Below, one piece after another: positions 6,066 through 32,278 of a stretch of 32,278 bases of DNA. Source of the stretch: Kiritimatiellia bacterium. Lineage in GTDB: Bacteria > Verrucomicrobiota > Kiritimatiellia > RFP12 > UBA1067. The DNA lies in assembly GCA_017544725.1 (NCBI GenBank), contig JAFYDR010000122.1:1-32278 (forward strand). Reading direction: 5' to 3'. Positions within the stretch are counted from its first letter, which is position 1, and each line of letters begins with the position of its first letter. The notes beneath the pieces were generated by a model. That model was not told the DNA's origin. It searched no databases and worked only from the letters and a program-made list of their open reading frames with translations. The position numbers and the translations under genes are program-made.

Positions 6066-6426
6066 GCGGAAAATTTGGGAAGCTTTGCTGGAGCGGAATT
6101 GAATTTCGTGGAAAATGAAATTCCTCCCATAAGCGTGACACGCACCATACGACCACCACCATGCGCGACTGGCGAGACTGGTGGCTTTACACCCGTCCCC
6201 ATTGTCTCCATCGTCCCCATTGTCTCCATTATCCCTTCTTCTCAGCCTCTCAGCTTCTCCGCTTCTCAGCCCTAACTTTCCACGCTTCTCAGCTGGCGGC
6301 ATTAGCCGCCCTGCCGCCTGTCACTCGTTGCTGGTGGCATCGACAGGCAATTTCAAGCCGCATAGCGGCGATTTAACCTTTTAATCTTTTCATTTTTCAC
6401 TAGCGGCTTTGCCGCCCAACTCTCTA
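6066..6426. repeat. Intergenic repeat cluster between the mlaD-like and GH20 genes
   Basis: This gap between divergent genes shows no credible coding frame. It holds a pyrimidine-rich stretch with repeated GTCTCCAT/GTCCCCAT units (about 6200-6235). A copy of the GCTGAGAAG family in inverse orientation (about 6237-6293) follows, then a hairpin GGCGGC-ATTA-GCCGCC at 6295-6310 and a related GCGGCTTTGCCGCC near 6405. The same blocks recur in other gaps of the window. A GCGACTGGCGAGACTGG piece near 6166 also matches the ends of repeats at 15460 and 21945. Confidence 0.6.
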
Positions 6427-8013: not shown

Positions 8014-8348
8014 CTGAGGAGGCAGCAGGGAGTAGGGGTGGCAAAGCCGCCAGCTGAGAAGCGGGGAAACTGAGAGACTGAGAAGAAGGCAGTAGGGAGT
8101 GGCTTTTAGTCCTCCCTCTGCCTATCTTCATCTCATTTGCTATTGGCAGCATCCGCCGTCCCGCGTAACGACGAGGCATGTTTCGTGCAAGGGCATTCTT
8201 GCCCGTGTCCGCCCCGTGTCGCCACTACGCGGATCACAATCGATAGCTACCGATGACACGCAACAAACGACACGCAACATTCCGCGTTTGACTGGCGAGA
8301 GTCGCAAAGCGACACCTAGATTTTTCAACTGGTGCTTCTACCGCCTGA
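8014..8348. repeat. Intergenic repeat cluster between convergent GH20 and phosphoesterase genes
   Basis: No gene is seen. The gap contains TGGCAAAGCCGCCA (8039-8052), a copy of the GCTGAGAAGCGGGGAA family (about 8053-8091) and a copy of the CGATAGCTACCGATGACACG family at 8236-8280. The last is followed by a CTGGCGAGAGTCGC tail. The repeat at 8236 is nearly the reverse complement of the one at 12331-12377, which lacks about 14 nt of it. No U-tract terminator was recognised for either convergent gene. Confidence 0.65.
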
Positions 8349-10153: not shown

Positions 10154-10217
10154 CTCTGACTCCTCTCTTCTTGCATTACCAACAAATAGGAATGGAAACA
10201 ACAGGAACCACTTACTC

Positions 10218-10266
10218 GTTATCCCCATGAATATTCCCGCGCGCGACGTGAACGGGACACTTACCT
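10218..10266. repeat. Dispersed repeat block, copy 1
   Basis: Starts GTTATCCCCATGAA and continues with a CCCGCGCG core to a CTTACCT end. A diverged copy in the same orientation lies at 12444-12490 (CTTGCCT end). It sits in the 120-nt gap between the glutaminase-like gene and ridA, a position that could place it inside a polycistronic transcript. Confidence 0.6.
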
Positions 10267-12241: not shown

Positions 12242-12753
12242 TCGACCCTTTCACAATTTCCAGTCATACCGACACACAGCATACCAGACAGGAATTTACT
12301 CTAACAAAATATCCCCTATCAAGCAAGGTCAAACGCGGAATGTCGTGTGTCATCGGTAGCTATCGATTGCTATCGAGTGGGAGGGACGCGCTCCGTCGCG
12401 TCCGCTTGTGTAACGACGACGCCCACGCCGTCGAAACCGGCAAGTTATCCCCATGAACGTTCCCGCGCGAGGCGGGCGGGGCGCTTGCCTATAACTTCGA
12501 GCCGCCAGAGGCGCCAGTGACGAGTGACGAATGAAGGTAAAGCCACCAGTCACGCCAGTCCTGCTAGTCTCAGATGTCGCATTGTGCGAACCTCTATGGA
12601 GAGCCGCCGTCTCGGCGGCTGTATCGTTCACATCATTGCCGCCGGGATGGGGCTCTCCATATTACCGCCGAAACGGCGACCATATCGCACGAACCTGTAA
12701 CTTCGCTGCGCGAAGTAGTGATAGGCGGCGAAGCCGCCTGCGGGATAAGCGTG
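12242..12753. repeat. Mosaic intergenic repeat region
   Basis: No coding frame is supported. After the leader of the glutaminase-like gene come four recognisable blocks. They are an inverse CGATAGCTACCGATGACACG unit (12331-12377), a hairpin block containing GGGACGCG and CGCGTCC with TAACGACGAC (12377-12420), a GTTATCCCCATGAA block (12444-12490), and hairpins AGCCGCC-GTCT-CGGCGGCT near 12602 and AGGCGGC-GAA-GCCGCCT near 12723. The first three recur elsewhere in the window in other orders, and GGCGGC-type hairpins occur in many of the gaps. Confidence 0.65.
12377..12420. repeat. Hairpin repeat block, copy 1
   Basis: GTGGGAGGGACGCG, a short loop, CGCGTCC and then a TAACGACGAC end form a compact stem-loop with a conserved tail. 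The copy at 32237-32278 is nearly identical over about 42 nt. Confidence 0.75.
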
Positions 12754-12966
12754 TTAAGCTGAGGCGCTTTGCGCAGTGATGAGAGAAATTTCATGCGGAG
12801 GCGTAAATATGGAGGAATACTGGTTCAACGCATTGGAGAGGTAGTAGTTCGTCGCCGCGTTGCGGGAGGCGAGGATGAAGTTGCCGACGCTGTCGTAGGA
12901 ATACGAGTAACCGTTCGCGGAAACGGACGTCGACACGACCTGCGAGCGCGCGTCGCAAGAGAACGG
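12754..12966 (-). pseudogene. RHS/YD-repeat protein remnant
   Basis: The reverse strand encodes DARSQVVSTSV, then GYSYSYDSVGNFILASRN and YYLSNALNQYSSI. This is a clear single RHS/YD repeat (Y-Y-D-GN, then NALNQY). Around it the frame has no plausible start, the upstream sequence soon loses similarity, and the downstream tail (IFTPPHEISLITAQ...) looks random before the stop. RHS repeats normally occur in dozens of copies in proteins over 1000 residues long, often toxins or surface proteins. This is therefore a decayed fragment, lying 20 nt beyond the Gfo/Idh/MocA stop. The core match spans 12808-12909. Confidence 0.7.
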
Positions 12967-15355: not shown

Positions 15356-15413
15356 GAGATTACTGCTTTTGATAAGCACTTCAGGTCATCGGTCACGAAA
15401 AGCGTGGCCATCC

Positions 15414-15481
15414 CGTTCGATTGCATTCGATAGCAATCGATAGCTACCGATGACACGCGACAAACGGACTGGCGAGACTGG
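15414..15481. repeat. CGATAGCTACCGATGACACG family, copy at 15414
   Basis: CGTTCGATTGCATTCGATAG, then CAATCGATAGCTACCGATGA, CACGCGACAAACG and CTGGCGAGACTGG. Very similar to 21861-21960, which carries an additional CACGCGACACGCCGC stretch. About 165 nt of further repeat DNA follow to 15647, with GCCGCC-TTC-GGCGGC at 15561-15575 and GGGCCACAGGCCC near 15628. No gene is visible there. Confidence 0.65.
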
Positions 15482-15647
15482 CAACCTTTCTTTCATTCGT
15501 CACTCGTCATTCGTCATTGGCGGCTCCATCGCCCCCATTCTTCATTCATATTTCTTCATTGCCGCCTTCGGCGGCTTAACCCGCTAGCACGTCCCCAACT
15601 TAGGGCGAAGCCCACTTACTCACTCAGGGCCACAGGCCCACTTAATC

Positions 15648-17070: not shown

Positions 17071-17181
17071 CATGCGCACGAGAGGATTTTGGAAAACAAC
17101 ATAAACAACCTGAAGACAACAACTGAAAGAGGTGCGCGGACCAACCAGTCCGCGCATCCCTTCTCCTTTGCCAATAACTTG
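17071..17181. repeat. 110-bp dispersed repeat, copy 1
   Basis: Begins CATGCGCACGAGAGGATTTT and ends CAATAACTTG. It contains a GCGCGGACCA-anchored palindrome pairing with AGTCCGCGC. The second copy is at 28740-28849 in the same orientation with high identity over its whole length. Both copies lie upstream of the -35 box of a minus-strand promoter. The 155 nt beyond it (17182-17336) contain CGGTTTCGACG and repeated AGCTAAAAGCT units but no gene. Confidence 0.75.
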
Positions 17182-19782: not shown

Positions 19783-19945
19783 AGGCTGAGAAGCGGGGAA
19801 GCTGAGAAGTTGAAAAGCGGGGACGTTGCCTATTCGATAGCCGTCGATTGCAGTCGATGCGGTCGCGACAACCTTACCCCACCTAACTCGCTTACCCTAC
19901 TACCTACTGCCTATCCCCTACTGCCTATCCCCTACTTTCACTTTT
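19783..19945. repeat. Intergenic short-repeat tract
   Basis: Contains a GCTGAGAAGCGGGGAAGCTG tract (about 19783-19822), a diverged CGATAGCCGTCGATTGCAGT piece (about 19835-19860) and a tandem CTACTGCCTATCCC repeat (about 19905-19937). No gene was seen before the promoter at 19950. Confidence 0.55.
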
Positions 19946-21554: not shown

Positions 21555-21628
21555 AAAAATAGGACGGGCAGAAGATTTTTTTGATTCTGGATGAGGGAGA
21601 AGACAGAAACCGTACCATCTTGCGACAA

Positions 21629-21852
21629 GCCCCGAAGGGGCGAAGAAGGTACACAGACGGGGGCAAGCGTAGCGCCGCCCCCGGAATCAGGTAAAGACAC
21701 GTTAGCCCTGAAAGGGCGACGGAAAGCGACGCAGCATGACGAGTGGAGGTAGATTGTTCTGCCGCCCCTTCAGGGCTTGACAGATATCGGTCGTACCGCC
21801 GGGGGTTACGCTTCGCTCACCCCCGTCTGTATAGGTGACGCCCTTTCAGGGC
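21629..21852. repeat. Nested three-arm inverted repeat (224 bp)
   Basis: Three pairs of arms are symmetric about position 21741. The outer pair is 21629-21642 (CCCCGAAGGGGCG type) with 21839-21852 (CGCCCTTTCAGGGC). The middle pair is 21653-21684 (ACAGACGGGGGCAAGCG start) with 21799-21830 (ending CACCCCCGTCTGT). The inner pair is 21704-21719 (AGCCCTGAAAGGGCG) with about 21763-21778 (CGCCCCTTCAGGGCT). Each small arm is itself nearly palindromic. It resembles composite REP/BIME-like elements; no gene overlaps it. Confidence 0.75.
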
Positions 21853-21860
21853 CAAACACT

Positions 21861-21960
21861 CACGACAAGCGTGACTCTCCCGTTCGATTGCAATCGATAG
21901 CTACCGATGACACGCGACAAACGACACGCGACACGCCGCATTGGACTGGCGAGACTAGCG
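21861..21960. repeat. CGATAGCTACCGATGACACG family, longest copy
   Basis: It starts near CACGACAAGCGTGACTCTCC, passes through CGTTCGATTGCAATCGATAG, CTACCGATGACACGCGACAA, two further ACACGCGACA-like units, and ends at CTGGCGAGACTAGC. The remaining DNA to 22049 holds a GGCGGC-GTA-GCCGCC hairpin near 22000 and no gene. Confidence 0.7.
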
Positions 21961-22049
21961 GCTAAACACATGTCCCCATTGTCCCCTCTTCTTCGCTGGC
22001 GGCGTAGCCGCCCTTACTGCCGCCTTTCTCTCAGCTTAACACGCTTCTC

Positions 22050-22074
22050 AACTGGGCGGCGAAGCCGCCCAGTT
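22050..22074 (-). terminator. Perfect GGCGGC hairpin downstream of the nusA operon
   Basis: AACTGGGCGGC and GCCGCCCAGTT form a perfect 11-bp stem around a three-base loop, 20 nt after the djlA-like stop. No U-tract follows on the minus strand. It may serve as an mRNA 3' stabiliser or belong to the GGCGGC repeat family. Confidence 0.4.
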
Positions 22075-22093
22075 ATAGGCAAATCCCCTGTTT

Positions 22094-28687: not shown

Positions 28688-28739
28688 TCCCGCTTTTTCG
28701 GCTTTTGGACGAGCGGAGTTCCGCGTAATTCCCCCATCT

Positions 28740-28849
28740 CATGCGTACGAGAGGATTTTGGAAACAACTAGAACAACTTGAAGACAACATTTGAAAGAGG
28801 TGCGCGGACCAACTGGTCCGCGCATCGTCTCTCCTTTGCCTGTAACTTG
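28740..28849. repeat. 110-bp dispersed repeat, copy 2
   Basis: Begins CATGCGTACGAGAGGATTTT, contains a palindrome with GCGCGGACCA and TGGTCCGCGC arms, and ends TGTAACTTG. It is highly similar to 17071-17181. It lies 53 nt upstream of the nusA -35 box. Beyond it (28850-29001) come TATGGAGAGCCGCC, also seen near 12594, and a GCGGGCGAGTTAGCCCGC hairpin; there is no gene. Confidence 0.75.
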
Positions 28850-29001
28850 CCACTATGGAGAGCCGCCGTGTGCTACGCGGGCGAGTTAGCCCGCGCTCTA
28901 AAGACAAGTTGTTTTTTTAGGTTGTTTCTGTTGTTTTCATTTTCAAAAGACAACGGTGAAATACGCAGATGCCCCCCTTCCCCGCCCTTCTAATTTCTGA
29001 C

Positions 29002-30374: not shown

Positions 30375-30689
30375 GGCGGCGAAACCGACAGCCGAGAAGA
30401 TAGCTGAGAAGCTGAGAGGCTGAGAAGCTGAGAGGCTGAAAAGCTGAGAAGTAAGACAGCAAAACCGTTCAGCTGGCGGCATCTGCCGCCTCGGCCTAAC
30501 ACACTTAACCAGCTTACCCGGCTGGCGCGTAGCGCCCGGCCGGCGGCACCGCCGAACGGGACTACTGAGACAACCGGGACGAACGCGACAGGCGACAAAC
30601 GACATGCCTCGCTAATCTGGCATCTCCCGCCCTCAACACCTTTCCCCCTCCCCTCCTTTCGCTTCTCAACCTCTCAGCTTCCCCGCTTT
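30375..30689. repeat. Intergenic repeat cluster between convergent genes
   Basis: Starts directly after the methyltransferase stop. It holds about six tandem GCTGAGAAG/GCTGAGAGG units (30391-30452), hairpins GGCGGC-ATCT-GCCGCC (about 30474) and GGCGCGTAGCGCC with CCGGCCGGCGGCACCGCC (about 30523), an ACAGGCGACAAACGACATGC piece (about 30588), and an inverse GCTGAGAAG tract (from about 30660). No gene was seen. Confidence 0.65.
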
Positions 30690-31862
30690 TCAGCAGGCGG
30701 CATTTGCCGCCCGCCGCCCGCCCTTCTCTTGTCGGGGGGAATGGCCCCAGAATTCACCATACACAACGCTGAATCGGGAGACGCTTGGGTAACCGACGCG
30801 GGCGGCAACTTCCTTGACTAGCAGTTCACCTCTGGCCAGTAGCGCATGAGCCGCCTTCATCTTCACTTCCGTGATGTAACGGAGGGGACTCATACCGAGG
30901 TTTTCTCGGAATGCTTTCGACAGGGTGACATGGGAACGCCCCGTAAATGCCTCTAGGTCAACTGTGGAGAGTGGTCGATCTAGCGAGGAATCGATATATC
31001 CAAGCACATCCGCCAGCCATTCCGGTTTAATGGCGTGGCGTTCCGTGGAGGCTCGCGTGACCACACCATTCGGCGCGATGTGAAGAACGAGATGGTTCTT
31101 CTTTTTTGACGGGGAGTTCATCGCGTCCGACAACGTCTGCGCCGCCGCATACCCGATCCCGAAGGCATTCGGATCGATACTGGATATAGGCGTTTCCGCA
31201 AATGCGCACAGCAGACGATCGTCATCAACTCCCAAGATCGCCATTTGCCTCGGTATGTCGATGCCCATGTCGTGCGCGAGCCTGGAGACATTGAGCGCGA
31301 GCAGATCGTTGGCCGCAAACAAGGCGATGGGGAGATGGAGTCCCGCCAGCCAAGATTCCAAGGCACTTTTGTCGGTGATCGGATTGATATTCGTATTGAA
31401 GAATGCCCGCTGGTCGCGGAGAAGGGCGATTTCGCGCGTGACCACCCGATGTCCGTGACGTTCGAGCGCGGATAGGAACGCTTGTCGCCGCTTGTCCGAA
31501 AAGGCGACATTGCGAAATCCTACAAATGCGAAATGGGTATGTCGCTTCGCCAAAAAGTGCTCAGCGGCCAAGCATCCGATTTTCTCGTGGTTGGAGTTCA
31601 CCCCGTAAAATCCCGGATACGACCGTTGACAGAACACGTCCACCACAGGCAGTCCAGTACTTTTCAACCGGTGCGCGATCGCGTCGTTGGCGACACGGGC
31701 AATGATACCGGAACAACCGTCGAAGGCCCCGCGCTGCGGGATGGCATCCAGATTCAGCCACGTAAGCCGCCAGTCGTGCGTGGCACGCGCGAATGCGGCA
31801 ACGCCATCCACGAGCCGCCGACCGTATTCACTGGAACTTTCCGTCAAAACAGCTATCTTCAT
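30690..31862 (-). CDS. XylR-type transcriptional regulator (LacI-like sensor plus AraC helix-turn-helix)
   Basis: A 390-residue sugar-responsive activator of the XylR class. Residues about 1-270 form a periplasmic-binding-protein-like sensor (MKIAVLTESSSEYGRRLVDG; VNSNHEKIGCLAAEHFLAKR; LFAANDLLALNVSRLAHDMG; ILGVDDDRLLC). Residues about 280-375 form an AraC-type double helix-turn-helix, with VDLEAFTGRSHVTLSKAFRE and VKEVAARVGYPSVSRFSVVY. No N-terminal LacI DNA-binding domain is present, as expected for XylR. The last dozen codons (KGGRRAANAAC) and the stop lie in a GGCGGC hairpin and a GCTGA-type repeat. There is no Shine-Dalgarno before the ATG, and the promoter is so close that the mRNA may be leaderless. 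Its target genes are not evident; none of its neighbours is divergent from it within the window. Confidence 0.9.
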   Translation of the reverse strand: MKIAVLTESSSEYGRRLVDGVAAFARATHDWRLTWLNLDAIPQRGAFDGCSGIIARVANDAIAHRLKSTGLPVVDVFCQRSYPGFYGVNSNHEKIGCLAAEHFLAKRHTHFAFVGFRNVAFSDKRRQAFLSALERHGHRVVTREIALLRDQRAFFNTNINPITDKSALESWLAGLHLPIALFAANDLLALNVSRLAHDMGIDIPRQMAILGVDDDRLLCAFAETPISSIDPNAFGIGYAAAQTLSDAMNSPSKKKNHLVLHIAPNGVVTRASTERHAIKPEWLADVLGYIDSSLDRPLSTVDLEAFTGRSHVTLSKAFRENLGMSPLRYITEVKMKAAHALLARGELLVKEVAARVGYPSVSRFSVVYGEFWGHSPRQEKGGRRAANAAC

Positions 31863-32236: not shown

Positions 32237-32278
32237 TGGGAGGGACGCGCTCCGTCGCGTCCGATTGCGTAACGACGA
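32237..32278. repeat. Hairpin repeat block, copy 2 (cut by window edge)
   Basis: TGGGAGGGACGCG, a loop, CGCGTCC and TAACGACGA. It is nearly identical to 12377-12420 and may continue beyond the window. Confidence 0.75.

Follow-up and report, generated by a model that had tools for sequence, protein, structure and literature searches.

Between the genes of this locus, in the gap at 12,242-12,753 as in others, lie short blocks that recur in changing combinations, and the question is what kinds of repeats they are and how such mosaics arise. The window, i.e. the whole stretch of 32,278 nucleotides that was analyzed, is contig C52 of a draft Kiritimatiellae MAG (G000; 3.8 Mb, 366 contigs, ~75% complete). 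The host is an uncultured bacterium of gut type, and the NusA encoded in the window is 97% identical to NusA of the goat rumen Kiritimatiellae MAG RGIG3447 (JAFSTA010000076). Ordinary genes of the window include those for glycosyl hydrolases, MlaD, tyrosyl-tRNA synthetase, IF-2, NusA, an RlmL-like methyltransferase and a XylR-like regulator.

A sister species from the same genus (G001) was used for comparison, together with two further relatives (G002 and G003). Statistics were derived from 736 kb of the 3.8 Mb, comprising a first sample of 402 kb and 334 kb fetched later. The sampled stretches come largely from contigs carrying the repeat word W10, so that block densities may be somewhat high. 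Genes were called by a simple ORF and hexamer method. About 25 families resulted from a de novo search of the 402 kb, and a library of 23 consensus blocks was hand-picked from the de novo list plus reading of the sequence.

Repeat families between the genes

The gap parts are of at least three kinds: degenerate tandem tracts, hairpin modules and a MITE. Self-similarity in gaps is confined to lags of 7, 8, 9 and 10 bp and their multiples, with other lags, genes and shuffled gaps near zero. The tract units comprise TGACGAR, GACACGC and AATGAAG with 7 bp, GCTGAGAA and AACCACCY with 8 bp, GCCAGTCYY, GCTGGTTAA and GGGGACRAT with 9 bp, and the W10 unit TCGATNGCNA with 10 bp. Tracts of G001 display the same limit of 7-10 bp and the same kinds of words, with other favourite words. 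Hairpins are also frequent, with 470 stems of six or more in the gaps against 142 in shuffled gaps.

In the 402-kb sample, the 23 families cover 22.5% of the intergenic bases in 464 segments (shuffled gaps: 2 segments, 0.06%). At least one block was found in 104 of the 153 gaps, and at least three in 71. With up to one mismatch allowed, the W10 core GATAGCTACCGATGA was counted 98 times in the G000 genome, and once when the pattern is read backwards; the W8a pattern, a GCTGAGAAG tract, has 274 copies with none in the reversed control. Together with 207 MITE ends, these counts show that the families are genome-wide and not a peculiarity of the window. Gaps make up ~16% of the sequence, and the block families are mostly absent from genes: all 17 copies of the W10 word GCTACCGATGACA and all 28 of GACACGCGACA are intergenic. 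The location is not exclusive, however, since GCTGAGAAG is intergenic in 58 of 62 cases and GGGACGCG in 13 of 18.

The blocks named in the first-pass annotation were recovered at, or within ~30 bp of, the places it gave. The CGATAGCTACCGATGACACG word lies near 8242, 12350 (inverse), 15439, 21896 and 32036 (inverse), the GGGACGCG hairpin block at 12378-12419 and 32237-32278 (95% identical), and the GTTATCCCCATGAA block at 10218 and 12444 (87% identical). Moreover, GCTGAGAAG tracts and GGCGGC/GCCGCC hairpins were found in several gaps.

Library annotation of the gap at 12,242-12,753 starts with the W10 word (10-bp quasi-tandem TCGATNGCNA) and a remnant of a GACACGC tract, W7b (12341-12379, minus strand), followed by the hairpin module H1, GGGAGGGACGCGCTCCGTCGCGTCC (12378-12423, plus). 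Next is the module H2, AAGTTATCCCC...TATAACTT (12441-12500, minus), which has matches in G002 with E down to 8e-10. A W7a tract of the 7-bp unit TGACGAR (12518-12534, plus) and a W9a tract of the 9-bp unit GCCAGTCYY (12546-12571, plus) precede the hairpin module H5, TATGGAGAGCCGCC...GGGCTCTCCATA (12594-12662, plus), which is also present within MITE copies. The gap closes with the ACTTCGC hairpin H4 and a GGCGGCGAAGCCGCC hairpin (12700-12738, plus), and a W9b tract of the 9-bp unit GCTGGTTAA (12740-12761, plus).

Other gaps of the window contain further combinations. A mosaic of W9a, W9c, W8a and a hairpin is found at 6167-6320 (minus), a W8a tract with the W10 word and then a GACACGC-type tract at 8051-8279 (plus), and W10, W9a, W7a, W9c and W7c at 15413-15561 (plus). 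The gap with W8a, W10 and W7e at 19785-19926 (plus) corresponds to a different mosaic in the orthologous gap of G001. The fullest ordered copy of the window (21626-22088, plus) consists of a P1-P2 block, then W10, W7b, W9a, W9c, W9b and an H2 fragment. A mosaic of W7c, W9b, W7c, W7b, W10, W8b, H2, W8a and H1 extends up to the contig end (31897-32278, minus). The block of ~230 bp at 21626-21852 (CCCTGAAAGGGC ... GGGGGTTACGCTTCGCTCACCCCCG) is multi-copy in G000 and usually has the direction of the W10 word.

Searches of plasmids and phages, of Rfam and for tRNAs gave no match, and neither did an exact word sought in GTDB contigs and viral contigs; nothing therefore points to transport by a phage or plasmid. 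Single quasi-tandem tracts of 7-bp units were seen in L084, L090, L092 and L095, contigs of other named Kiritimatiellae or Verrucomicrobia, which suggests a wider occurrence.

MITE insertion, RAYT-like genes and gap turnover

The MITE, a GGGCGCATCTGCG element, possesses 22-bp terminal inverted repeats with GGGCGCATCTGCGTNNTTCACC ends. In addition to the G000 ends, 111 were found in G001, 12 in G002 and one in G003, with none in the reversed control. The 13 paired copies in the 736 kb of G000 range from 261 to 475 bp, and those of G001 are mostly 198-226 bp, up to 601 bp. Six of the 13 are flanked by a target duplication of 8-10 bp, mostly 9, matching at 9/9 three times and at 8/9, 8/8 and 10/10 (null at most 6/9), and further duplications were found in G001. 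The element has therefore transposed. One copy lies inside an AGCTTTC tract (L041:3295-3557) and another inside a GGCGGC hairpin (L043:6270-6611), which demonstrates nesting by insertion. MITE interiors are combinatorial, with alternative modules of which several also stand alone in gaps. A search for a partner transposase in this incomplete genome gave no IS256-type gene and a few DDE_Tnp_1 genes without MITE ends. Within the window, the element is represented by a right-end fragment together with an H2 module (10193-10243, minus), the right part of a partial copy (17071-17181, minus), and a copy in the nusA-rlmL gap (28710-28977, minus) whose right terminal repeat is at 28955-28977 and whose left one is decayed.

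The first-pass annotation also suggested looking for a transposase or RAYT-type gene associated with the blocks. RAYT-like genes are indeed present, two each in G000, G001 and G002 and one in G003; those of G000 match the model of REP-associated tyrosine transposases below its cut-off. The hairpin modules could accordingly be REPs moved by RAYT-like Y1 transposases, with the words carried along. The two genes in G000, the hairpin array downstream of the one at L058 and the hairpins in or beside G001 Y1 genes, with an H1-like GGGAGGGACGC stem at L156, would fit. A MITE mosaic lies upstream of the L058 gene, and the L057 gene has no such hairpins. Against this system, tags beside the hairpins are not above chance (GTAG 3 vs 2.2 expected, CGTC 2 vs 5.1). 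The presence of RAYT-like genes does not track the words either, because G002 and G003 have Y1 genes and no core copies of W8a or W10. IS200/IS605-type transposition makes neither inverted repeats nor target duplications, and both features of the MITE are foreign to it. Nothing ties RAYT-type genes to the words, and we regard such a system as an improbable source of the mosaics.

Some further features were seen around the Y1 genes. At L057:431-2364 (G000) and L153:955-2832 (G002), the RAYT-like Y1 gene is directly behind an ORF whose product, judged by eye, resembles a Cmr1-type CRISPR protein. An ORF upstream of the Y1 gene at L058:621-1283 contains in-frame repeats of ~60 bp (VAQRGAKVAPINRQVAPK). 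The hairpins at L152 and L156 of G001 are located within and beside Y1 genes (GACGGCGAGGGCGCCGTC; GGGAGGGACGCAATTCATTGCGTCC).

The families are restricted to a narrow lineage. The W8a pattern, with 331 copies in G001, is absent from 39 other genomes from the genus, family and order, G002 and G003 included; the W10 core has 13 copies in G001 and one further one-mismatch match in the 39. Eight gaps with conserved neighbours were compared between G000 and G001. Alignments of 76-98% identify both edges in seven gaps and, at this threshold, one edge in the eighth. The middles do not align in any of the eight, the sole colinear inner match being 24 bp of W10 in the GDPD-esterase gap. Between the same edges of the nusA-rlmL gap, G000 has the MITE and G001 has W8a, hairpins, W10 and W8b, with no MITE. 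Lineage restriction and differing gap middles indicate that what the gaps contain is young or subject to rapid replacement, so the blocks are not old sequence held in place among distant relatives. At L195 (G001:C115:12640-12800), a minisatellite with units of ~40 bp occupies the position that the W9c and W9a tracts have in G000 (L037:15512-15752).

Misjoining of short-read MAG contigs at repeats might in principle create mosaics, and the draft state of the assembly (366 contigs, 75% complete) and the many copies near contig ends would be in line with it. We consider such an artefact hardly credible, given that gene order and gap edges are conserved in an independent assembly, that the target duplications around MITEs are exact, and that the same kinds of words occur in G001. 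With lineage restriction, turnover of gap middles between sisters and transposition scars, the gap DNA looks like young, fast-changing repeats from known kinds of parts and not ordinary decay, which agrees with the first-pass annotation in this respect.

Direction and order of the repeat words

Within gaps, 729 of 947 family pairs fit one assignment of signs, against 575 in the best random-flip control. The families can also be arranged in one line, W7d, W8b, W10, W7b, W9a, W9c, W9b, W7a, W7e, W7c, W8a, which 311 of 398 pairs follow (best permuted-gap control 262). Because both rules had been fitted, they were tested unchanged on the 334 kb of unseen G000 sequence. Direction was confirmed by 313 pairs and contradicted by 82 (79% agreement), and order held in 244 pairs vs 103 (70%) and in 32 gaps vs 10; the sign test on gaps gives ~0.001 by our own arithmetic, and pairs within one gap are not independent. 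When the G000 library was applied to G001, order held (9 vs 2 gaps) and direction was weak (39 vs 28). A fixed direction and order with variable content, as in BOX elements, is therefore a tendency and not strict. No dependence of direction on gene transcription was seen: every arrangement of genes is found with either direction. Hairpins as separators of words show a slight excess only, being found at 53 of 215 junctions (25%) against 18% of control segments.

The first-pass annotation had proposed an active or recently active repeat system that assembles mosaics; in this view of free shuffling, interchangeable blocks would be cut and joined with no constraint on their order or direction. Composition is in fact different in every gap, 20-30% of the pairs are off-rule, and one gap (30410-30711) breaks the rule by its mixed direction, with W8a (plus), a hairpin, W9b (minus), W7b (plus), W8a (minus) and another hairpin. 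Direction and order are nevertheless far from random in fitted and held-out data, and the held-out test largely refutes free shuffling, which we now find very unlikely. The parts are of at least three kinds instead of one set of exchangeable blocks, and they share a direction and follow a loose order. The observation of the first-pass annotation that order and orientation vary between gaps is right insofar as a whole unit can face either way, and does not extend to the families, which share relative direction and a loose order. The off-rule pairs, ~20% for direction and ~30% for order, point to several independent or rearranged pieces in some gaps. In the gap at 12,242-12,753, none of the eight annotated blocks departs from the expected relative direction. 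The W10 part is displaced from its usual place and comes behind the W9a-W7a part, an arrangement that resembles two partial units placed head to tail.

Each tract might instead be an independent simple-sequence expansion reflecting a polymerase footprint, with no element involved. The confinement of unit sizes to 7-10 bp is in favor of this, and a DNA polymerase footprint has been proposed as the origin of heptamer repeats (PMC4692102, PMC4679880). However, the same unit variants recur at dozens of sites with their internal order unchanged, and different tracts share linkers, e.g. GGCGGCTAAACACC, which joins W9a to W9c in about eight copies. Independent expansion would not produce these features, and the shared linkers argue for descent from common composites. 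MITEs, in addition, require transposition. Slippage as the sole cause is thus very doubtful. It is also conceivable, though not likely, that the directional, ordered series of degenerate 7-10-bp words are the product of a process not yet recognised, with a unit size given by the footprint of one enzyme, and that this process rewrites whole gaps between terminator and promoter at the time scale of species formation.

Our preferred reading, which we hold to be reasonably probable, is that the gaps contain young, lineage-specific repeats of two sorts, a directional modular element and the MITE, and that mosaics arise by insertion, module exchange and slippage. The directional element would consist of tracts with 7-10-bp units (W10, W7b, W9a, W9c or W7a, W7c, W8a, W9b) and hairpin modules, each copy being a subset of modules that keeps to the order loosely and can have either orientation. 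Oriented copies of this element, read by eye, showed no recognisable ends, terminal repeats or target duplication. The MITE inserts with its duplication of 8-10 bp, mostly 9, in some cases within a tract or hairpin belonging to the directional element. Modules would probably be gained and lost where short stretches of common sequence allow recombination or template switching, and tracts may change by slippage. Unconstrained DNA between terminator and promoter is fully replaced between the sisters, as observed in all eight gaps.

Relation to known repeat systems

To our knowledge, degenerate tandem repeats of ~7 bases between bacterial genes have long been known with no established mechanism. 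We found no paper on intergenic tandem repeats of Kiritimatiellae in the open-access literature. The genus described here combines many words at once, a sharp limit of 7-10 bp on the unit, and a measurable rule of direction and order. Since the sister species have aligned edges and wholly different gap contents, slippage, insertion and recombination can be tested against each other. The comparison also illustrates how large a part of the DNA between bacterial genes, from a terminator up to the promoter that follows, can be free to turn over.

The G000 MITE resembles bacterial MITEs in its 22-bp terminal inverted repeats, its 8-10-bp duplication, its length of mostly 200-475 bp and its ~200 ends. 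It differs from known MITEs by alternative interior modules that are common to stand-alone gap blocks, and no partner transposase was found. TIMEs are reportedly mosaic MITEs of bacteria. REP, BIME and RAYT systems have in common with G000 the abundant intergenic hairpins and the RAYT-like genes, though G000 is without enrichment of GTAG or CGTC tags.

Judged by plan and behaviour, BOX, NIMEs and heptamer repeats are the closest known kinds, and none is a full match. BOX of Streptococcus pneumoniae is a composite directional repeat with ordered modules and variable content, thought to be non-autonomous, which spread in a lineage-specific burst and is clustered and nested with other repeats (PMC3049150). 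G000 shares the plan of directional, ordered modules with variable content, the likeness being one of plan. BOX has three modules and G000 about ten word modules, each a degenerate tandem tract of 7-10-bp units; moreover, the directional element of G000 is unlike BOX in that no defined ends were found and order is only a tendency. NIMEs of Neisseria (dRS3 and RS) form arrays between genes in which different repeat families are mixed and the units include short inverted repeats (PMC3898611). Both are intergenic arrays of mixed families, but the words of G000 are tandem tracts with a direction rule, and the hairpins, barely enriched at word junctions, do not form a dRS3-like separator. Heptamer repeats (STRR or long SSR) of cyanobacteria, Xanthomonas and Beggiatoaceae lie between genes as degenerate tandem units, some of which form inverted pairs, and a given gene pair is separated by different sequences in related species (PMC4692102, PMC4679880). 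The G000 tracts fall under the definition of STRR and long SSR, i.e. degenerate tandem units of ~7 nt between genes, and depart from them in the many words per genome, in unit sizes of 7, 8, 9 and 10 bp, and in the linking of words and hairpins into ordered series that recur.
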